Both the position numbers and the translations under genes were made by a program. This document shows positions 17,368 to 25,924 of a DNA stretch of 64,000 bases, in pieces; within the stretch, counting starts at the first letter, position 1; each line of letters opens with the position of its first letter. Under the pieces are notes generated by a model. That model had not been told where the DNA came from, did not search any database, and saw only the letters and a program-made list of their open reading frames with translations. This DNA is from Luteibacter jiangsuensis (GTDB lineage: Bacteria > Pseudomonadota > Gammaproteobacteria > Xanthomonadales > Rhodanobacteraceae): positions 1 through 64,000 of the forward strand of contig NZ_JAAQQR010000010.1 of the NCBI RefSeq assembly GCF_011742555.1, written 5' to 3'.

Positions 17368-17704
17368 GCTTTTGCCTGCACTGAGTGTGTAAGTGCTAAC
17401 GGCAGACCGAGGTCATGCTTTAGGTGAAAAGGCGACGTAAGTGGCTGATGCGACGAGTGAATCTACACATTGCTTAGGTGCGCCTTACGTCCGGTCGCGG
17501 CCACCCATCTCGTTCGCCAACCACGGAGGGCGCAGTGCCTTCCGCGCGGGTGAATCCAAAACGCCGCTTGGGCCGTATCAGGAAGATGGGCAGCCCTGGC
17601 AATCGGCGGCTCCTTTCTCCCGGGCGCCATGAGTGGAAACTTTGCGTATGATCGGCTTGGTCACAACTGTTTCCGGGGTGGTGCCTTTCGGGGCGAGGCG
17701 ATCC

Positions 17705-18283
17705 GTGACTCATGCGATCAACAATACCCCGCTCGACGCACACTACTGGTCGGCGCAGATGTCGGCCGTCTCGGCGCAGCGCGACCGCGCCAGCTTCATG
17801 CGCATCTACGACCATTTCGCGCCACTCCTGAAGCGTTACCTGCGCAACCTGGGCGTGCCCGATCCGGAGGCGGACGAGCTGGTTCAGGAAGCATTGCTGA
17901 CATTGTGGCGAAAGGCGGGCATGTTCGATCCGACACGCGCCAGCCTGTCCACGTGGCTGTTCCGCGTGGCGCGCAATCTTTACATCGACCACGTGCGGCG
18001 AGAGCCGCACTGGTTGCCGGTCCAGGAAGGTCTGGACCGCCTCGATCACGCCGAATCGGTGCGAATCGACTCACAGCCGGAGTCGTCCCTCGATCAGGAC
18101 CTCCTTCTTCAAGCGATCGATCGTCTTCCGGCCATACAGGCGAAGCTGGTTCGCATGTGTTATCTCGAAAGCAAAAGCCACAGCGAGATCTCCTCTGAAC
18201 TGGACATGCCGCTGGGTTCGGTCAAGTCGTCGTTGCGGCGCGCTTTTGCGAAATTGCAGCGCAGCATGAGGGCGCCGCGATGA
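17705..18283 (+). CDS. ECF sigma factor (RpoE of an RpoE-ChrR pair)
   Basis: This 192-residue group IV sigma factor has region 2 at about residues 25-95 (DHFAPLLKRYLRNLG, ELVQEALLTLWRKA, LSTWLFRVARNLYIDHVRR). Region 4 lies at about 135-188 (LPAIQAKLVRMCYLE, HSEISSELDMPLGSVKSSL). Its partner is the ChrR-type anti-sigma factor, whose ATG overlaps this stop (ATGA). In Rhodobacter the equivalent pair responds to singlet oxygen. GTG 17705 with GAGG at 17695-17698 is preferred; an in-frame GTG at 17633 would add 24 residues without sigma similarity. Autoregulation is likely, but no promoter motif was recognised with confidence. Confidence 0.92.
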   Translation: MTHAINNTPLDAHYWSAQMSAVSAQRDRASFMRIYDHFAPLLKRYLRNLGVPDPEADELVQEALLTLWRKAGMFDPTRASLSTWLFRVARNLYIDHVRREPHWLPVQEGLDRLDHAESVRIDSQPESSLDQDLLLQAIDRLPAIQAKLVRMCYLESKSHSEISSELDMPLGSVKSSLRRAFAKLQRSMRAPR

Positions 18284-18939
18284 AGCCGACTCATCATCTG
18301 GATGATGCCACCGTGCTCAGCTACTCCTCCGGCGCGCTGCCCGGGGCACTCGCGGTGGTCGCCTCCGCGCATCTGGAGCGCTGCGCCACCTGTCGCGACA
18401 GGCTGCTCGACGCCGACCGGATCGGCGGCCTGCTGTTACAGCAGCAGCGCGTCGAACCCCCGACGGAAGAGGCACGCTCCGCCATGCTGGCCCGGCTCGA
18501 CAGCGAACCGGTCATCGCACCGGAGCAGGTCGGAGACATGGTGGAGGATCACGACCCTGACCGGCTCCCCCATGCGCTGCACCCTTGGTTCGGCCATTCC
18601 ATGCGTGCCTTGCGCTGGCGCCGCGTGGCCCCGGGTGTGCAGCGCATCCGCGCGACCGGCATCGGCGGCGGCGACCTGATGCTTTTGCGCATCGCCCCAG
18701 GCAGCAAGCTGCCGCTGCACAGCCACGGGGGCAGCGAACTGACCATGATCCTCGATGGCGCCTACGATGACATGCTCGGTCATTTCGGTCCGGGCGATGT
18801 GGCCGATCTGGACGGCGAGATCCTTCATCAGCCGGTGACGTCGCCGGGCGTGCCGTGCATCTGCGTGGCAGCCACGGACGCGCCGCTCAAGTTCTCCGGC
18901 TGGGTTGCCCGCGCGCTGCAACCTCTGTTCGGATTCTGA
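18280..18939 (+). CDS. chrR: ChrR-type anti-sigma factor (zinc domain plus cupin)
   Basis: The 219-residue protein has an N-terminal zinc anti-sigma domain with His6, His31, Cys35 and Cys38 (HLERCATC), the ligand set described for Rhodobacter ChrR. A C-terminal cupin carries His147, His149, Glu153 and a candidate His183 in the spacing of the ChrR metal site (LHSHGGSELTMILDG). The first domain would hold the sigma factor; the cupin is needed for release in response to singlet oxygen in Rhodobacter. Overlap with the sigma gene and the downstream lipid genes support the assignment. Confidence 0.92.
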   Translation: MKPTHHLDDATVLSYSSGALPGALAVVASAHLERCATCRDRLLDADRIGGLLLQQQRVEPPTEEARSAMLARLDSEPVIAPEQVGDMVEDHDPDRLPHALHPWFGHSMRALRWRRVAPGVQRIRATGIGGGDLMLLRIAPGSKLPLHSHGGSELTMILDGAYDDMLGHFGPGDVADLDGEILHQPVTSPGVPCICVAATDAPLKFSGWVARALQPLFGF

Positions 18940-19067
18940 GCCGCCAGCGGCACAGCTTTTATTAGCCAGCTGCCGCGCGCCGAAGGGAAGGGCTGGTCGG
19001 CACACAAGGTCGGGTGCATCCAATCGCCGCCGCCATGCGTATCTGTCATGAGCGCACAGGAACCGCG

Positions 19068-20018
19068 ATGGACAATGCCCCGAAAACTTCCAGCCCCAAG
19101 CCGTCGCTACGGCGGTTGCGCCAGTGGTTCGACGCCGGCGCGGTCGCGCTGCCGGCGGACGATCCGCGTGCCGACCGCATCGACTGGCTGCGAGCGGCCC
19201 CCTTCCTGGCGATGCACTTCGCCTGCGCTGGAGTGATCTGGGTCGGTGTGTCGCCCATTGCCCTGATCGTGGCGGCCACGCTTTATGCGGTTCGGATGTT
19301 CGCCATCACGGGGTTTTACCATCGCTATTTCTCGCATCGCACGTTCCAGACGTCGCGTCGCGTCCAGTTCGTGTTCGCCCTGATAGGCGCGTCTTGCGTG
19401 CAGCGTGGACCGCTTTGGTGGGCGGCGCACCACCGCCACCATCATCGGCACGCCGATACCGCGCTGGATCCTCATTCGCCCGGCGTGCACGGCTTCGTGT
19501 GGAGCCATGTGGCTTGGTTCCTTACGCCGCGCAACTTCCGCACCGATCTGTCTCGCGTGCCCGACCTGGCGAAATATCCGGAGCTGCGCTGGCTGGACCG
19601 ATTCGACATCGCCGTTCCCGTCGCGCTGGCCGTGGGTCTCTACGCGCTCGGCGTCCTGCTCCATCGCGTCGCTCCGCAGCTCGGCACCAGCGGGGGGCAG
19701 ATGCTCGTCTGGGGGTTTTTCATTTCCACGGTTGTACTTTTCCACGCCACCGTGACGATCAACTCCCTGGCGCATCGCTTCGGCAAGCGTCGCTTCGAAA
19801 CAAGGGACGACAGCCGCAACAACCTCTGGCTGGCCCTGCTGACCTTCGGAGAGGGCTGGCACAACAACCATCATTTCTTCCCTGGATCCTGTCGCCAGGG
19901 CTTTCGCTGGTGGGAAGTGGATGTCACCTGGTACGTGCTCAAGCTGATGTCCGCTCTTGGACTGGTGCACGGACTCAAGCCGATACCGGCGTGGGTCATG
20001 GCCAAGGCGAGGGGCTGA
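19068..20018 (+). CDS. Acyl-CoA/acyl-lipid desaturase
   Basis: This 316-residue membrane di-iron desaturase has the three histidine boxes HRYFSH, HHRHHH and HNNHH and about four membrane helices. It would introduce a double bond into a fatty acyl chain using oxygen. ATG 19068 follows an AGGAA site; a 128-base gap separates it from chrR, enough for an internal promoter. Its place at the head of the CFAS-like gene run suggests that it supplies or further oxidises acyl chains that the methyltransferases modify; that link is inference. Confidence 0.88.
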   Translation: MDNAPKTSSPKPSLRRLRQWFDAGAVALPADDPRADRIDWLRAAPFLAMHFACAGVIWVGVSPIALIVAATLYAVRMFAITGFYHRYFSHRTFQTSRRVQFVFALIGASCVQRGPLWWAAHHRHHHRHADTALDPHSPGVHGFVWSHVAWFLTPRNFRTDLSRVPDLAKYPELRWLDRFDIAVPVALAVGLYALGVLLHRVAPQLGTSGGQMLVWGFFISTVVLFHATVTINSLAHRFGKRRFETRDDSRNNLWLALLTFGEGWHNNHHFFPGSCRQGFRWWEVDVTWYVLKLMSALGLVHGLKPIPAWVMAKARG

Positions 20019-20021
20019 GCC

Positions 20022-21320
20022 ATGCGTATCGCCGTGGTTGGATCGGGCATCTCCGGGCTGGCGTCTGCATGGTTGTTGTCGCGTAAGCACGACGTGACGC
20101 TGTTCGAAGCCGACGGCTATATCGGCGGGCACACGCACACCCATGACATCGAGCAGAAAGGTCGCCGTTTCCGGATCGACAGCGGTTTCATCGTGCACAA
20201 CCCAGATCACTATCCGCTGCTGACGCGTATGTTCGACGATCTGGGTGTGACGTCGCAGCCGACCACCATGAGTTTCTCGGTGCACAGCGAGGCCAGCGGT
20301 CTGGAATACAACGCCAGCACGCTGGACTCGCTCTTCTGCCAAAGGCGGAATCTGCTTTCGCCGCGCTTCCTGGGGATGGTTCGCGATCTGGTGCGGTTCT
20401 ACCGCGAGGCACCGGCGCTTCTGCTACAGCCGGACGACACGATCACACTGGGCGCTTACCTGGACAAGCAGCGCTATGGCGCGGCGTTTCGCGACGAGCA
20501 CCTGATCCCGATGGCGTCCGCGCTGTGGTCGTCGCCGGCGACGCAGATTCTCCAGTTCCCGGCGCGCTACCTCGTGCAGTTCATGGCCAACCACCAGATG
20601 CTGCAGGTCAGCGGGCGCCCGCAGTGGCGCGTGGTGCAGGGTGGCTCTTCGACCTATGTGGCGGCGCTGCGGGCGCGCTGGTCTGTCCGCGAACGACTGA
20701 ACTGCCCGGTGTTCTCGGTCCGTCGCGACCACGGCCTCGTTTGCATTCAAAGCGCCGCCGGCGACGAGCATTTCGACCAGGTGGTGCTGGCCTGCCACAG
20801 CGATCAGGCGCTGCGCCTGCTGTCCGACGCGAGCGAGCGTGAGCAATCGATCCTGGGCGCGATGACCTATCAGGCGAACGACACGGTGCTGCATACCGAC
20901 ACCCGCGTTCTGCCTCGGCGGCGCAAGGCGTGGGCGGCGTGGAATGCCTGGGTGCCGCGTGACGCCGGAGCTGCCTGCACGGTGAGCTATTGCATGAACC
21001 TTCTGCAGGGAATCGACTCGGCGGAACCGTTCATCGTTACGCTGAACCGAAGCGAGGCCATCGCGCCTGACAAAGTGCTGGCACGCATGCGCTACCACCA
21101 CCCTGTATATACGCGGGCCTCGGTACGTGCGCAGTCGCGAAAGGCCGAGATCCAGGGCAGGAGCGGTACCTGGTTTGCCGGCGCTTACTGGGGCTGGGGC
21201 TTCCATGAAGACGGCATGCGCAGCGCGGTCGAGGTGGCGGCTGCGCTGGGAGTCCATTGGCCGTCCGACACCGCGGCGGGCGCCGTGGGGGAAGCGCATG
21301 GGCTGGAGGCGGCGGCGTGA
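20022..21320 (+). CDS. FAD-dependent oxidoreductase (COG2907, amine-oxidase-like)
   Basis: The 432-residue flavoprotein begins with a Rossmann FAD motif (VVGSGISGLASAWLLS, residues 5-20) followed by the GGHTHTH segment, and has the C-terminal WFAGAYWGWGFHEDG FAD-contact block. COG2907 proteins sit next to DUF1365 and CFAS-like genes in many bacteria and resemble phytoene-desaturase-type oxidases. It starts three bases after the desaturase stop and overlaps the next gene (GTGA). Substrate unknown; a role in oxidising methylated acyl chains is plausible. Confidence 0.88.
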   Translation: MRIAVVGSGISGLASAWLLSRKHDVTLFEADGYIGGHTHTHDIEQKGRRFRIDSGFIVHNPDHYPLLTRMFDDLGVTSQPTTMSFSVHSEASGLEYNASTLDSLFCQRRNLLSPRFLGMVRDLVRFYREAPALLLQPDDTITLGAYLDKQRYGAAFRDEHLIPMASALWSSPATQILQFPARYLVQFMANHQMLQVSGRPQWRVVQGGSSTYVAALRARWSVRERLNCPVFSVRRDHGLVCIQSAAGDEHFDQVVLACHSDQALRLLSDASEREQSILGAMTYQANDTVLHTDTRVLPRRRKAWAAWNAWVPRDAGAACTVSYCMNLLQGIDSAEPFIVTLNRSEAIAPDKVLARMRYHHPVYTRASVRAQSRKAEIQGRSGTWFAGAYWGWGFHEDGMRSAVEVAAALGVHWPSDTAAGAVGEAHGLEAAA

Positions 21321-22117
21321 CGGCGAAGGCCGCCAGTACAGCGCTCCCCTGGGCCAGCGCCGTCTATGAGGGCGTCGTGCGCCATCGTCGCCATGCGCCG
21401 CATCCGCACGCTTTCACCTATCGCATGGCGCAGCTTTATCTTGATCTCGACGAGGTCGAGCAGGTCTTCCGCGGACGCTGGCTGTGGTCGGCCACGCACG
21501 CCAACGTGGCACAGTTCCGCCGCAGCGATTACCTCGGCCCCGATGATCTGCCGCTGGTCGAGGCCGTGCGCCGTCGCGTCGAACAGGCCACCGGTCGGCG
21601 GCCGATGGGGCCGATTCGTCTGCTGACTCACCTGCGCTACTTCGGGCTGGTCTTCAATCCGGTCAGCTTTTACTACTGCTTCGCCGAGGACGGCCAGACC
21701 CTGGTCTCGGTGCTGGCCGAGATCACGAATACCCCCTGGAAGGAACGGCACGCGTATGTACTGCCGGTCGACGGCGCCATCGATAGGGATGGCGCACTGC
21801 ACTGGCATTTTTCCAAGACGTTTCACGTCTCGCCGTTCATGGCAATGGACTGCGAGTACGACTGGCGACTCAACATGCCGGACGAGCACTTGCGGGTGCA
21901 CATGAATGTGCTGCGCGAAGGACGGCGAGAGTTCGATGCCACGTTGAGCCTCGAACGGCGTGCACTCTCCCCCGGATCGCTGGCGCGCGTGCTCTGGCGC
22001 TACCCCTTGATGACCGCGCAGGTGGTCGGGGCGATCCACTGGCAGGCGCTTCGGCTCTGGTTGAAACGGAATCCGGTCCACGATCACCCCGCGCTGCATG
22101 CGCGTGGTCCCGAATGA
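21317..22117 (+). CDS. DUF1365 family protein
   Basis: This 266-residue protein has the DUF1365 pattern: AVYEGVVRHRRHAPHPHAFTY at the N-terminus, LTHLRYFGLVFNPVSFYYCF near residue 100, and NTPWKERHAYVLP. Its function is unknown, but the family is nearly always adjacent to COG2907 and CFAS-like genes, as here. The GTG at 21317 overlaps the COG2907 stop by four bases. Weak C-terminal hydrophobicity (VLWRYPLMTAQVVGAIHW) suggests membrane contact. Confidence 0.88.
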   Translation: MTAKAASTALPWASAVYEGVVRHRRHAPHPHAFTYRMAQLYLDLDEVEQVFRGRWLWSATHANVAQFRRSDYLGPDDLPLVEAVRRRVEQATGRRPMGPIRLLTHLRYFGLVFNPVSFYYCFAEDGQTLVSVLAEITNTPWKERHAYVLPVDGAIDRDGALHWHFSKTFHVSPFMAMDCEYDWRLNMPDEHLRVHMNVLREGRREFDATLSLERRALSPGSLARVLWRYPLMTAQVVGAIHWQALRLWLKRNPVHDHPALHARGPE

Positions 22118-22139
22118 CATTGCTTCCCCGAGGTTTGCC

Positions 22140-23408
22140 ATGAACGAGATCGCCACACCCGTCGCGCAGGAAGCCGCCCCGTTCGGCGCCCTTGATCGCT
22201 TCCTGCGTCGACAATTGCTCGACCGCATGCGCGGGCTGCGCCATGGCCGTCTGGTGCTTCACGACGCCTGCGGTTCGGTGGAGTTCGGCGACCCCGCGAA
22301 TGTCCAGACGGATCTGCAGATCCGTCTGCAGGTGAAGGACCCCGCCTTCTATCGCGCCGTTGCCCGTCGTGGCAGCGTCGGCGCTGGCGAGTCCTATATG
22401 GACGGTCAATGGAGTTGCGACAACCTTGTGGGCCTGATTCAGCTGCTTGTCCGCAATCGCGATCTCCTCGACGGCATGGAAGGCGGGCTGGCACAACTGG
22501 GCGCCGTGGCCCTGCGCGCCTGGCATGCGCTTCGCCGCAACACGCGCAACGGCAGCCGGCGCAATATCTCTGCACACTACGATCTGGGCAACGATTTCTT
22601 CGCCTTGTTCCTCTCGCAGGATCTGATGTACAGCTCGGCTATCTGGGACGATCCCGCCGATACGCTGGACACGGCCTCGGCCCGCAAGCTCGAACAGATC
22701 TGCCGCAAGCTCGACCTGAAGCCCACCGACCGGGTGATCGAAATAGGTACCGGCTGGGGCGGCTTCGCGCTGTATGCCGCCAGGCACTATGGATGCCACG
22801 TCACCACGACGACGATCTCCCGCGAGCAGTTTGCGTTTGCCGGCAAGCGCGTCGCGGAGGCGGGCGTGGAGGCGCATGTCCAATTGTTGCTCCAGGACTA
22901 TCGGGACCTCGAGGGCCAGTACGACAAGCTCGTCTCGATAGAGATGGTGGAGGCGATCGGCGCGCAGTATCTGGATACCTATTTCGAGAAGCTCGGTCGC
23001 TTGCTCAAGCCCGATGGGCTGGCGCTGGTGCAGGCGATCACGATCGAGGACCACCGCTACGAGCAGGCCCTGACGTCGGTCGACTTCATCAAGCGCCACG
23101 TGTTCCCCGGCAGCTTCATTCCGTCGATCAGTGCATTGATGGCAGCGAAGACCCGTGCCAGCGACCTGGCGCTGATCCGGATGGAGGACTTCGGAAGTTC
23201 TTATGCACTCACCCTCAAGGCCTGGCGTGAGCGTTTCATGGCGAAGTTGCCGCAGGTCCGCTCGCAAGGGTTCGACGAAAGGTTCATCCGCCTCTGGGAG
23301 TTCTATCTGTCCTATTGCGAAGGCGGGTTCCGGGAGCGCTCGATCGGCGTGGCCCATCTGCTGTTGGCCAAGCCCGGACACCGTCCGTCCGCGCGCGACC
23401 TCGGGTAA
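22140..23408 (+). CDS. Cyclopropane-fatty-acyl-phospholipid synthase family methyltransferase, paralogue 1
   Basis: The 422-residue protein has an N-terminal lipid-binding-like region and a C-terminal SAM methyltransferase fold. Diagnostic segments are SAHYDLGNDFFALFLSQDLMYSS, VIEIGTGWGGFA (SAM motif I) and SIEMVEAIG. CFAS proteins add a methylene bridge across phospholipid cis double bonds; relatives in ChrR regulons can instead C-methylate the chain. ATG 22140 follows CGAGG at 22129. It differs strongly from the second paralogue at 24199. Confidence 0.9.
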   Translation: MNEIATPVAQEAAPFGALDRFLRRQLLDRMRGLRHGRLVLHDACGSVEFGDPANVQTDLQIRLQVKDPAFYRAVARRGSVGAGESYMDGQWSCDNLVGLIQLLVRNRDLLDGMEGGLAQLGAVALRAWHALRRNTRNGSRRNISAHYDLGNDFFALFLSQDLMYSSAIWDDPADTLDTASARKLEQICRKLDLKPTDRVIEIGTGWGGFALYAARHYGCHVTTTTISREQFAFAGKRVAEAGVEAHVQLLLQDYRDLEGQYDKLVSIEMVEAIGAQYLDTYFEKLGRLLKPDGLALVQAITIEDHRYEQALTSVDFIKRHVFPGSFIPSISALMAAKTRASDLALIRMEDFGSSYALTLKAWRERFMAKLPQVRSQGFDERFIRLWEFYLSYCEGGFRERSIGVAHLLLAKPGHRPSARDLG

Positions 23409-23419
23409 GGGACGTTTCC

Positions 23420-24202
23420 ATGAGCATCGGGTGGCAATGTCTGATCCTGTGGCTGTTGGCGGCGACGGTCATGACCCTTGGCTGGCAGTGGCAGCGCAGT
23501 CGTTCCAATGCCGGTATCGTCGACGTGCTCTGGGCGGCGGGCGTAGGGGCCGGCGCCGTGCTCATGGCGCTCTTCGGCAGCGGTGCGCCGATGATCCGGG
23601 CAGCGCTCGCGATCCTCGGCGGCGTGTGGGGTATGCGCCTGGCCCGCCATCTGTGGAAGCGTGTGCGCGGTGAACCGGAGGACGGTCGCTACAAGCACCT
23701 GCGCGCGCACTGGAAAGGCGCGCAATGGAAATTCTTTGCTTTCTTCCAGTTCCAGGCCTTGCTGATCGTGCTGTTCGCGCTGCCTTTCGCAGCCGTGGCG
23801 AAAAATCCGCAGGTGTCCGTTGCATGGCTGGCCGCAGGTGCTGTCGTCTGGTTGCTCAGCGTGGTTGGCGAGTCGGTCGCCGATGGGCAGCTGGCGCGTT
23901 TCCGCGCGGACCCGGCGAACAAGGGGCGTACCTGCCGCGAGGGTCTGTGGCGGTACTCGCGCCACCCGAACTATTTCTTCGAGTGGCTGCACTGGTTCGC
24001 TTACGTCTTCCTTGCCGTCGGATCGCCTTTCTTCTGGCTGGCGTGGTCCGGCCCGTTGGTGATGTACGTCTTTCTGCGCTGGATCAGTGGCGTGCCATAC
24101 ACCGAGGCACAAGCCTTGCGCAGTCGCGGCGATGAGTACCGCGAATACCAGCGCAGCACACCGATGCTGATTCCCTGGTTTCCCAAGAGGTCGGAACAAT
24201 GA
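23420..24202 (+). CDS. DUF1295 membrane protein (steroid 5-alpha-reductase-like)
   Basis: This 260-residue protein has about six membrane helices and the DUF1295 signatures GIVDVLWAAGVG near residue 28 and LWRYSRHPNYFFEWLHW near residue 178; the latter resembles the C-terminal motif of 5-alpha-reductases and ICMT enzymes. It may reduce or methylate a lipid double bond. ATG 23420 was used because the upstream extension overlaps the methyltransferase gene in another frame. Its stop overlaps the next start (ATGA). Confidence 0.87.
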   Translation: MSIGWQCLILWLLAATVMTLGWQWQRSRSNAGIVDVLWAAGVGAGAVLMALFGSGAPMIRAALAILGGVWGMRLARHLWKRVRGEPEDGRYKHLRAHWKGAQWKFFAFFQFQALLIVLFALPFAAVAKNPQVSVAWLAAGAVVWLLSVVGESVADGQLARFRADPANKGRTCREGLWRYSRHPNYFFEWLHWFAYVFLAVGSPFFWLAWSGPLVMYVFLRWISGVPYTEAQALRSRGDEYREYQRSTPMLIPWFPKRSEQ

Positions 24203-25281
24203 ACGTCGCCAAGCCTGCTCCCCACGAACGGTCCAACGAACGACCGGCTACCGGTCTGCTCGGCATGGCCGAACGCGGCCATCTTCCGGATGCCCTTTTG
24301 CGCCAGGGGATTCGACGCCTCTGCGCGCAGCGCCTGCGTGAAGAGCGGGACGGCGGCTTGGAGGCTCAGTCGGCGCGTTACGCCGAGCGCATCTCGATGT
24401 TGCGGAGCAGCCCGCTGGCGGTCCATACCGACGAGGCCAATGCGCAGCATTACGAGTTGCCGCCCGCATTCTTCGAGCTTTGTCTGGGCAAGCGCCTGAA
24501 GTACTCGGGGTGCTATTACCCCCGCGGCGACGAAACGCTGGATCAGGCGGAGGAGGCCATGCTCGAGCTGTACGGCGAGCGCGCCGAGCTGGCAGATGGC
24601 CAGTCCATCCTGGAACTGGGTTGCGGCTGGGGTTCGCTGACGTTGTGGATGGCGCAGCGCTATCCACACGCCCGGATCACCGCGGTGTCCAACTCGAGTT
24701 CGCAGCGTGAGCACATCGAGGGACAGTGTCGCGCGCGGGGGCTGGCCAATGTGCGGGTCATCACCTGCGACGTGAATACCCTGGAGCTCGATCCCGCCCA
24801 GTTCGACCGCTGCGTGTCCGTCGAGATGTTCGAGCACATGCGCAACTACGACATGCTCATGAGACGCATCGCCCTATGGCTGCGGCCGGGCGGCAAACTG
24901 TTCGTGCATATCTTTGCGCACCGGACCCTGATGTATCCCTTCGAGACCCAGGGCGACGACAACTGGATGGGCCGCCACTTCTTCACCGGTGGCCTGATGC
25001 CGGCATCGGACACGCTGCTGTGGTTCCAGTCTGTCCTGCACATCGAGCAGCGCTGGCATGTCGACGGTACGCATTACCAACGCACAGCCAACCATTGGCT
25101 GGCGAATCAGGACGCCCGGCGCGAGCAGGTCATGCATGTGCTGAGCCAGGCCTACGGTGCGAAGTCTGCATCGCTGTGGTTTCAGCGCTGGCGCATGTTC
25201 TGGATGTCGTGCGCCGAGTTGTTCGGGTACGCCGACGGCCAGGAGTGGCTGGTTGCGCATTACCGCTTCGTGCGGCCCTGA
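24199..25281 (+). CDS. CFAS-like SAM methyltransferase, paralogue 2
   Basis: The 360-residue enzyme has the SAM motif ILELGCGWGSLTLWMA near residue 136, VSVEMFEHMRNYDMLM and LFVHIFAHRTLMYPFE. This pattern is closer to the short CFAS-like/coclaurine-methyltransferase-like branch than to Cfa proper. The preceding HYELPPAFFELCLGKRLKYSG is the substrate-side signature. It overlaps the DUF1295 gene by four bases. Two methyltransferases of different branches in one operon suggest two successive or alternative acyl-chain methylations. Confidence 0.88.
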   Translation: MNVAKPAPHERSNERPATGLLGMAERGHLPDALLRQGIRRLCAQRLREERDGGLEAQSARYAERISMLRSSPLAVHTDEANAQHYELPPAFFELCLGKRLKYSGCYYPRGDETLDQAEEAMLELYGERAELADGQSILELGCGWGSLTLWMAQRYPHARITAVSNSSSQREHIEGQCRARGLANVRVITCDVNTLELDPAQFDRCVSVEMFEHMRNYDMLMRRIALWLRPGGKLFVHIFAHRTLMYPFETQGDDNWMGRHFFTGGLMPASDTLLWFQSVLHIEQRWHVDGTHYQRTANHWLANQDARREQVMHVLSQAYGAKSASLWFQRWRMFWMSCAELFGYADGQEWLVAHYRFVRP

Positions 25282-25308
25282 GTCCATTCCCACCCATAGG
25301 AACCCGCC

Positions 25309-25869
25309 ATGAAACTGCCCAAAGCCCTGCTGCTGGCGTGTGCCGTGATGGTCAACACCAGTGCGTGCGCCACCAAGTTGCCGCCGATCGACCCGGTGGC
25401 CCACGTCGACCTGCCTCGTTACATGGGTAGCTGGTACGTGATCGCCGCCATTCCCACGCGTTTCGAGAAAGACGCGTACGATGCCGTCGAAACCTACACG
25501 CTGAAGCCCAATGGCGAGGTCGCGACCTTGTTCCATTTCCGCAAGGGCAGCTTCGATGGCAAGCTGAAAGAATTCCGCACCACCGGGATCGTGAAGCCGG
25601 GCACCGATAACGCGGTGTGGGGAGTGCGGGTGTTCTGGCCCCTGAAAGCACAATACGTCGTTGCCTACCTCAAGGACGACTACAGCCAGGTGATCGTGGC
25701 CCGGGACGCGCGCGACTACGTCTGGGTGATGGCGCGCACGCCGACGATTTCCGAGGCGGACTACGGCGCCCTGTTGAACAAGGTGAAGGCCCTTGGCTAT
25801 CCGATGGACAAGATCCGCAAGGTGCCGCAGAGGCCACGTGGGGCCGATCTTGGGACGGGCGCCCGGTGA
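25309..25869 (+). CDS. Lipocalin-family outer-membrane lipoprotein (Blc-like)
   Basis: This 186-residue precursor has a lipoprotein signal ending SAC20 and a lipocalin domain starting with the GSWYVIA motif near residue 43, then VWGVRVFWPLKAQYVVAYL and YVWVMARTP. Blc-type lipocalins bind lysophospholipids or fatty acids at the outer membrane. Its position 27 bases after the methyltransferase suggests it carries modified or damaged acyl chains made or repaired by this operon. It is the last host gene before the prophage junction. Confidence 0.9.
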   Translation: MKLPKALLLACAVMVNTSACATKLPPIDPVAHVDLPRYMGSWYVIAAIPTRFEKDAYDAVETYTLKPNGEVATLFHFRKGSFDGKLKEFRTTGIVKPGTDNAVWGVRVFWPLKAQYVVAYLKDDYSQVIVARDARDYVWVMARTPTISEADYGALLNKVKALGYPMDKIRKVPQRPRGADLGTGAR

Positions 25870-25886: not shown

Positions 25887-25917
25887 AAAAAAAACCAGCA
25901 ATCGCTTGCTGGTTTTT
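25887..25917. terminator. Terminator shared by the lipocalin gene and the tRNA-Asn remnant
   Basis: CCAGCAA (25895-25901) and TTGCTGG (25906-25912) form a 7-bp stem with a TCGC loop. TTTTT follows on the plus strand; on the minus strand the stem is followed by eight T residues. It can end transcription of the lipocalin operon and originally of the tRNA-Asn gene. Confidence 0.88.
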
Positions 25918-25924
25918 CCGAATT

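Follow-up and report, generated by a model that had tools for sequence, protein, structure and literature searches.

Furan fatty acids are radical scavengers and protective antioxidant lipids of membranes, found in plants and fish too; to our knowledge, their control is known in few bacteria. A monomethyl furan fatty acid is produced from cis-vaccenate chains by three proteins, the methylase UfaM (resembling cyclopropane fatty acid synthase, CFAS), the flavoprotein UfaD and the DUF1365 protein UfaO, and the dimethyl form by a further enzyme, FufM (RPA0924) (Lemke et al. 2020, PMC7380195, excerpt; sources so marked are cited from part of their text). In Rhodobacter (Cereibacter) sphaeroides, ufaM, ufaD and ufaO belong to the core regulon of the sigma factor RpoE and its anti-sigma factor ChrR, a regulon that, with its furan genes, is credited to Dufour 2008 by PMC6852236 (excerpt). 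In Rhodopseudomonas palustris, ufaD, ufaO and ufaM lie in the order RPA2571-2569 (PMC7380195, excerpt). In Stenotrophomonas maltophilia, loss of chrR raises expression of the cluster smlt2375-smlt2367 by 165- to 697-fold, and in a chrR/rpoE double mutant it is at or below the wild-type level (PMC11832516, 2025). Here we describe a locus of Luteibacter jiangsuensis, located in a window of 64,000 nucleotides (NZ_JAAQQR010000010.1, positions 1-64,000, forward strand), which we read, with a probability of roughly 0.78, as a two-unit, auto-regulated stress regulon composed of RpoE-ChrR and a furan fatty acid operon. Since sigma/ChrR control of the S. maltophilia operon has already been published, the window operon belongs to a known kind; what is novel comes from its relatives, where the same operon and promoter motif stand beside a different, unrelated sensor.

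The locus comprises nine open reading frames (ORFs) of one direction (plus strand, 17,705-25,869). Their Pfam and NCBIfam matches are, in gene order, Sigma70 r2/r4, TIGR02451, FA_desaturase, Amino_oxidase/NAD_binding_8, DUF1365, CMAS, DUF1295, CMAS and Lipocalin_2. The ORF list and these matches agree with the gene families and coordinates given in a preliminary description of the locus, the label COG2907 for the flavoprotein lying outside the profiles used. Its statement that the genes mostly overlap by four bases was too strong: such overlaps occur at three of the eight junctions (rpoE/chrR, ufaD/ufaO with a GTG start at 21317, and DUF1295/cfa2). The others are gaps of 128 (chrR-des), 3 (des-ufaD), 11 (cfa1-DUF1295) and 27 bases (cfa2-lipocalin), and the ufaO-cfa1 junction is an overlap of 20 or a gap of 22, depending on the choice of start codon. 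The ratio of nonsynonymous to synonymous substitution rates (dN/dS) is 0.065-0.148 for all nine genes in comparison with the nearest relative (genome G022, locus L054), indicating purifying selection, so that all nine look like working genes.

Like the window, S. maltophilia has a sigma/ChrR pair (rpoEc-chrR-chrA) beside an operon (smlt2375-smlt2367) that codes, in the same order, for a desaturase, an FAD oxidoreductase, a hypothetical cytosolic protein, a CFAS, membrane proteins, a second CFAS and a lipocalin. The S. maltophilia pair is transcribed divergently from the operon and includes a third gene, chrA, whereas that of the window precedes the operon on the same strand, des following chrR with no gene in between. 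The window also lacks the periplasmic first gene of S. maltophilia and the DUF2878 gene (known from locus L039) between cfa1 and DUF1295; within the ORF list of the window, the rest of the genome lying outside the search, seven genes of the nine-gene cluster are present. An S. maltophilia-like layout, chrA being outside the scope of the comparison, was found in five genomes of one genus (L077, L078, L079, L082 and L087), and from these the hypothetical proteins of S. maltophilia would correspond to DUF1365, DUF2878 and DUF1295. A table in PMC11832516 places the S. maltophilia ChrR in the inner membrane; the possibility that this protein is in fact an RskA was rejected on the evidence of the five same-layout genomes, which carry a true ChrR 53-55% identical to that of the window (the S. 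maltophilia sequence itself lay outside the comparison). The word "furan" was not found in the main text of that article, where the cluster is not linked to furan fatty acids.

The R. sphaeroides system shares with the window the sigma factor and the ChrR ligands. Its ufaM (RSP2144) lies elsewhere, as judged by locus number, whereas in the window all of these genes form one operon, together with a desaturase, DUF1295 and a lipocalin. R. sphaeroides yields the dimethyl product only once fufM is added (PMC7380195, excerpt), while the window operon has a FufM-type gene of its own. In five genomes taken as Rhodobacteraceae (L105-L109), ufaD and ufaO adjoin the sigma/ChrR pair. Rhodopseudomonas possesses the same four enzymes as the window (RPA2571-2569 and RPA0924), but in two modules far apart on the chromosome (at 1.04 and 2.88 Mb in genome G390) that are joined in the window.

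The first gene, rpoE (17705..18283; GTG start, judged by eye against relatives), codes for a sigma factor of the extracytoplasmic function (ECF) type, group ECF11, whose nearest solved structure is R. sphaeroides RpoE (2q1z_A, E 1e-30; runner-up SigL, 1.5e-15). It is followed by chrR (18280..18939), coding for a zinc-binding anti-sigma factor with a cupin-like domain, which scores 163 bits against TIGR02451 (cut-off 124.5) and aligns with R. sphaeroides ChrR (2z2s, E 6e-34). The eight ligands read in the preliminary description, H6, H31, C35, C38, H147, H149, E153 and H183, are all present as stated and align with those of 2z2s, and both the N-terminal and the cupin-like zinc site of the RpoE-ChrR (ECF11) group are thereby found in the window ChrR. 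In the SigK-RskA pair of the Mycobacterium tuberculosis type, by comparison, the anti-sigma factor RskA is predicted to be membrane-bound, whereas the window ChrR is a zinc/cupin cytoplasmic protein; in a search of the genus genomes, no RskA orthologue was found in that of the window. In M. tuberculosis, sigK-rskA presumably follows a COG2907/DUF1365/ufaA1/DUF1295 operon. The autoregulation of sigK through the Rv0449c promoter is described in PMC7509140 (excerpt, which confirms nothing further on the M. tuberculosis operon).

A search of the window's own genome (4.33 Mb) with the pattern TGMATCC-N16-CGTA, in which the spacer of 16 is fixed, returned six exact sites, and the reversed pattern, used as a control, returned none. 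Two of the six are at this locus: TGAATCC-N16-CGTA before rpoE (17551..17577, plus strand) and TGCATCC-N16-CGTA before des (19015..19041, plus strand), both ECF-type promoters by their form. The motif is found upstream of des in all 21 genus loci read (10 of the ChrR type, including the window, and 11 of the RskA type) and no more than 350 bases upstream of rpoE in 6 of the 10 ChrR-type loci, again including the window. With six loci of other genera added, it precedes des or the periplasmic first gene in 27/27 loci of the family. RpoE is predicted from the motif to act at both sites of the window. The motif shared by rpoE and the desaturase gene supports the RpoE-ChrR assignment of the preliminary description and, together with the order of the Ufa genes, the self-contained layout proposed there.

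The core of the lipid operon is formed by a ufaD-like flavoprotein gene (20022..21320; Amino_oxidase/NAD_binding_8), a ufaO-like DUF1365 gene (21317..22117; PF07103, 286 bits) and the ufaM-like cfa1 (22140..23408, with a possible earlier start at 22098; PF02353, 269 bits). Their products are, respectively, a predicted desaturase of methyl-branched acyl chains, a predicted furan-forming monooxygenase and a putative S-adenosylmethionine-dependent acyl methylase. The order flavoprotein, DUF1365, CFAS is that of RPA2571-2570-2569 and recurs in Rhodopseudomonas pseudopalustris DSM 123 (L121) and its congener G390 (L202). Between Rhodopseudomonas and the window, the proteins in the ufaD position are 41-42% identical, those in the ufaO position 34-36%, and the ufaM-position protein and cfa1 41%; homologues of all three members of the furan pathway are thus present in a row, at 34-42% identity. 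By homology and gene order, the COG2907 protein, the DUF1365 protein and the first CFAS-like protein are assigned as UfaD, UfaO and UfaM, and the earlier suggestion of a connection with methylated and furan fatty acids gains from the Ufa genes standing in the order of the proven pathway.

The preliminary description regarded both methyltransferases as CFAS-like, and both do match the Pfam CMAS family. Smlt2371 and Smlt2368, moreover, are named cyclopropane fatty acid (CFA) synthases in PMC11832516, an article in whose main text furan, as noted, does not appear. On such grounds cfa1 and cfa2 could both be taken to form cyclopropane rings, with the flavoprotein and DUF1365 as accessory proteins. 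PMC11832516 interprets its own cluster in this way, but for the window we consider the reading very unlikely. Neither protein attains the cut-off of 400 bits of the CFAS equivalog NF008686 (cfa1, 300; cfa2, 135). A separate CMAS gene elsewhere in the genome (C15:269892) is the slightly stronger match (280 bits, compared with about 270 for cfa1); its product is 35% identical to cfa1 and, in the methyltransferase tree, falls outside the UfaM-position group (29/29 on one side of the split, support 0.99). Among solved structures, cfa2 is much closer to plant coclaurine N-methyltransferase (6gkv, E 1e-76) than to CFAS (6bqc, E 3e-24), which corrects the earlier label of the second methyltransferase. 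The identity of both as cyclopropane synthases was rejected on the NF008686 scores, the separate CMAS gene, the structure matches and the tree, and the UfaD-UfaO-UfaM order of the proven furan pathway also speaks against it. A second alternative, unlikely in our judgement, is that the operon makes the monomethyl furan only, and that cfa2 (24199..25281; CMAS, 134 bits) and DUF1295 (23420..24202, a membrane protein; PF06966, 228 bits) act on another substrate, such as an amine or a quinone. The likeness of cfa2 to plant N-methyltransferases would fit, as would a DUF1295 family without known function and, among 80 named loci (mostly alphaproteobacteria), a cfa2 found close to the ufa genes in only 8. 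In a sample of 70 loci taken from the order and the phylum, however, cfa2 accompanies the ufa genes in 49, and in the tree of 51 methyltransferases (from which one mis-extracted row, L060, was dropped) the cfa2-type proteins, including the FufM-position protein of Rhodopseudomonas, form one clade (21/21, support 1.00).

Further comparisons bear on the reading of cfa2 as a FufM. In three genomes read (L192, L201 and L204), the FufM-position gene lies directly after DUF1295, and its product shares 47-49% identity with cfa2. The CMAS family has a match of 130-143 bits in 16/16 searched genomes of the genus of R. pseudopalustris. On the G390 contig, the FufM-type gene, the UfaM gene and a third, fragmentary CMAS match lie at 20%, 55% and 65% of the length; from their locus numbers, and assuming about 4,836 genes, we take RPA0924, RPA2569 and RPA3082 to be expected at 19%, 53% and 64%. 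The third site (L203) had no match with the window proteins. The FufM-position protein of G390 is 24% identical to its UfaM-position protein, the published value for RPA0924 and R. sphaeroides UfaM being 26% (PMC7380195, excerpt). PMC10940516 (excerpt), which lists RPA0924 under UniProt Q6NBA4, gives AT4G33110 as the homologue of FufM in Arabidopsis. On the strength of the clade, the likeness to plant N-methyltransferases and the position after DUF1295, cfa2 is assigned to FufM and is probably a member of that family, not a cyclopropane synthase. DUF1295 adjoins cfa2 on the same strand in 45 of the 49 fetched operon loci with cfa2 and in all 8 such named loci, the two sets having a few genomes in common; by this neighbourhood it is assigned to the furan gene set, tied most tightly to cfa2. 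The locus thus probably encodes the complete dimethyl-furan pathway (UfaM, UfaD, UfaO and FufM), rather than a loose set of lipid enzymes.

Onto the observed genes, ligands, homologies, promoter pair and synteny, the following mechanism can be laid, its chemistry and its sigma control being those known from homologues. Unit one would consist of RpoE and its cytoplasmic zinc-binding inhibitor ChrR, and unit two of the lipid operon. Under oxidative stress, by singlet oxygen or another oxidant, ChrR would free RpoE, which would then start transcription at TGMATCC-N16-CGTA before both units. Unsaturated acyl chains of phospholipids would be converted stepwise: UfaM would add a methyl group, UfaD introduce a second double bond, UfaO insert oxygen from O2 and close the furan ring, and FufM, as predicted for cfa2, place a second methyl group on that ring. 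The membrane fatty acid desaturase (des, 19068..20018; PF00487, 80.7 bits; His boxes HRYFSH, HHRHHH and HNNHH) is probably the supplier of the unsaturated chains, and DUF1295 may help FufM or another step. The last gene (25309..25869; PF08212, 131 bits) codes for a Blc-like lipocalin, probably an outer-membrane lipoprotein by a lipobox seen by eye only, which probably handles modified or damaged lipid in the envelope; its score against NF007786 is 78 bits, below the cut-off of 267.

As to the inducer, singlet oxygen is the signal in R. sphaeroides, and in Caulobacter both singlet oxygen and organic hydroperoxides quickly switch the system on (PMC6852236, excerpt). In Rhodobacter capsulatus, whose RpoE/ChrR resemble SigK/RskA, rpoE transcripts rise on exposure to singlet oxygen (PMC7074977, excerpt). 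These reports argue against an inducer of another kind, namely superoxide, some other oxidant or lipid damage in the envelope, for which the membrane-anchored RskA-type sensor beside the same operon in relatives speaks; we place the latter idea only a little short of an even chance. In such non-phototrophs singlet oxygen is not an established signal, and for the window species we infer the signal from homologues. Several observations weigh against the regulon as we read it. In S. maltophilia, neither rose bengal nor tert-butyl hydroperoxide revealed a phenotype of the sigma and ChrR mutants, while superoxide did (PMC11832516). FufM alone sufficed in R. sphaeroides, where DUF1295 was not required (PMC7380195, excerpt), and in 3 of the 70 loci and 14 of the 80 named loci, these 14 mostly of Bradyrhizobium, DUF1295 accompanies the ufa genes where cfa2 is absent. 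The FufM stand-ins are R. pseudopalustris DSM 123 and congeners, not the CGA009 sequence itself, and the identity of UfaO is only about 35%. Finally, four motif sites lie elsewhere in the genome. Three fall within long frames of the other strand and the fourth (C11:341917, minus strand) in the interval separating two frames, so that the regulon may reach beyond this locus.

The sensor survey covered 23 genomes of the window's genus. ChrR was found in 12 and an RskA orthologue in 12: ten genomes have ChrR only, ten RskA only, two have both (G013 and the fragmentary G006) and one has neither (G015, the sole genome of the 23 without DUF1365). The RskA-only genomes contain the same operon and the same promoter motif beside a SigK/RskA pair. 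A hidden ChrR in these ten was rejected, none being found in 10/10, and so was a hidden ECF11 sigma factor, eight of the ten giving no match at E 1e-20 and two a match at only 31% identity. In locus L035 the anti-sigma factor belongs to RskA_C (PF10099), and the sigma factor is nearest to M. tuberculosis SigK (4nqw, E 7e-32), followed by R. sphaeroides RpoE (6e-25). Among all fetched operon loci with a sensor pair nearby (46), 30 have ChrR and 16 a pair of the SigK-RskA type.

On a tree of six joined enzymes, for which 41 of 71 loci were usable (16 with ChrR, 16 with RskA and 9 with neither nearby), at least three changes between sensors are needed; 1000 shuffles of the labels need at least five, with a mean of 10.95. 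The window groups with L075 (ChrR) and then with L076 and L052 (both RskA), with support of 0.98-1.00. L075 and L076 belong to separate species that share another genus of the family. In both, a photolyase gene, a TspO gene and then the operon come after the pair (rpoE-chrR in L075, sigK-rskA in L076). The photolyase and TspO genes have 81% DNA identity between the species, with about 1 kb more between these genes in L076. This looks like an exchange in place. In a second family (f2), the sister group of L084 (RskA) consists of five Stenotrophomonas-like loci from the same genus, all with ChrR. A similar case was met in the Rhizobiaceae, between Neorhizobium alkalisoli (L179, sigK-rskA) and Rhizobium tropici PTD1 (L181, rpoE-chrR), whose enzyme genes share 71% DNA identity. 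G013, with lipocalin-rpoE-chrR on one contig (L205, C55) and the lipid operon beside sigK-rskA on another (L046), may be an exchange intermediate.

We give an even chance to the proposal that the sensor is a plug-in part, in other words that ChrR/ECF11 and RskA/SigK-type modules have repeatedly replaced each other while the enzymes and, within the family, the promoter stayed constant. A SigK-type sigma factor would then bind the shared promoter, as its adjacency to the operon and the conservation of the motif suggest. The distribution of the motif counts against the proposal. Beyond the window's family the strict motif becomes sparse: family f2 has it in 5 of 12 loci, and the 8 testable loci from families further removed (L056-L064, leaving out L062) yielded none. 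A looser TGATCC form precedes ufaD in the alphaproteobacterial loci L165 and L180, and was not found before ufaD in L179 and L188. Given this sparseness, the claim of a fixed promoter is made for the window's family only. The motif was also found before none of 17 sigK-like genes, although ECF sigma factors often control themselves, which speaks against simple autoregulation of SigK. As to precedent, the R. capsulatus RpoE/ChrR are closer to SigK/RskA than to their R. sphaeroides namesakes, and remodelling versus gene transfer was left there as a question (PMC7074977, excerpt). In the titles and abstract openings listed by searches of the open-licence PMC literature, no description of sensor exchange before furan operons was found.

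Other features of the sensor genes were noted along the way. In L075 and L076, photolyase and TspO/MBR genes separate the sensor pair from the furan operon whichever sensor is present, and neither is there in the window. In eight alphaproteobacterial loci (L135, L138, L140, L141, L143, L150, L153 and L157), a ChrR-like gene is found on the strand opposite to ufaD-ufaO-ufaM, about 2-4 kb downstream of these genes, and no rpoE was matched beside it at the thresholds used. In Bradyrhizobium (L128-L133, L136, L137 and L151), a second ECF sigma gene directly follows rpoE-chrR near the furan genes and matches the SigK-type query better than it does the window RpoE, as if both sigma types had been kept together. 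The RskA match of one RskA-type relative (G019:C3:138964-139707) has an in-frame stop (TAA) in the search output.

Past the last gene, an inverted repeat of 14 pairs (25888..25919) is a possible operon terminator by consensus match only; it was scored on the minus strand, with a T-run on the plus strand seen by eye, and eight such repeats were found in the region compared with 5.6 expected. In the stretch 26052-64000 of the window, a prophage seems to start about 180 bases beyond the operon, with an integrase match just below the Pfam cut-off followed, on inspection by eye, by genes for a DnaB-like helicase, terminase, portal, capsid, tape measure and NlpC/P60-like tail proteins. The alignment with the nearest relative (L054) ends at about 25,976, a possible sign of recent insertion. 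No tRNA gene was detected in the window by ARAGORN.

The locus probably brings a full dimethyl pathway together in one operon behind one promoter, and the comparison suggests that the published "cyclopropane" cluster of S. maltophilia is a furan pathway as well. In Chlamydomonas, the singlet-oxygen induction of CFA1, DUF1365, DUF1295 and CFA2 needs SAK1, and another table of the same article names CFA2 a coclaurine N-methyltransferase (PMC4067076, excerpt). One gene set may thus serve the same stress in bacteria and algae, the algal genes being likened here by description. The exchange of sensors offers natural pairs of close relatives for direct comparison of the signals that govern furan lipids. 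If the sensor is indeed a plug-in part, two different sigma factors would read one promoter, the synthesis of furan fatty acids would be coupled to a signal from either the cytoplasm or the envelope, and the R. capsulatus question, a remodelled rpoE-chrR or an acquired sigK-rskA, would be answered as replacement.

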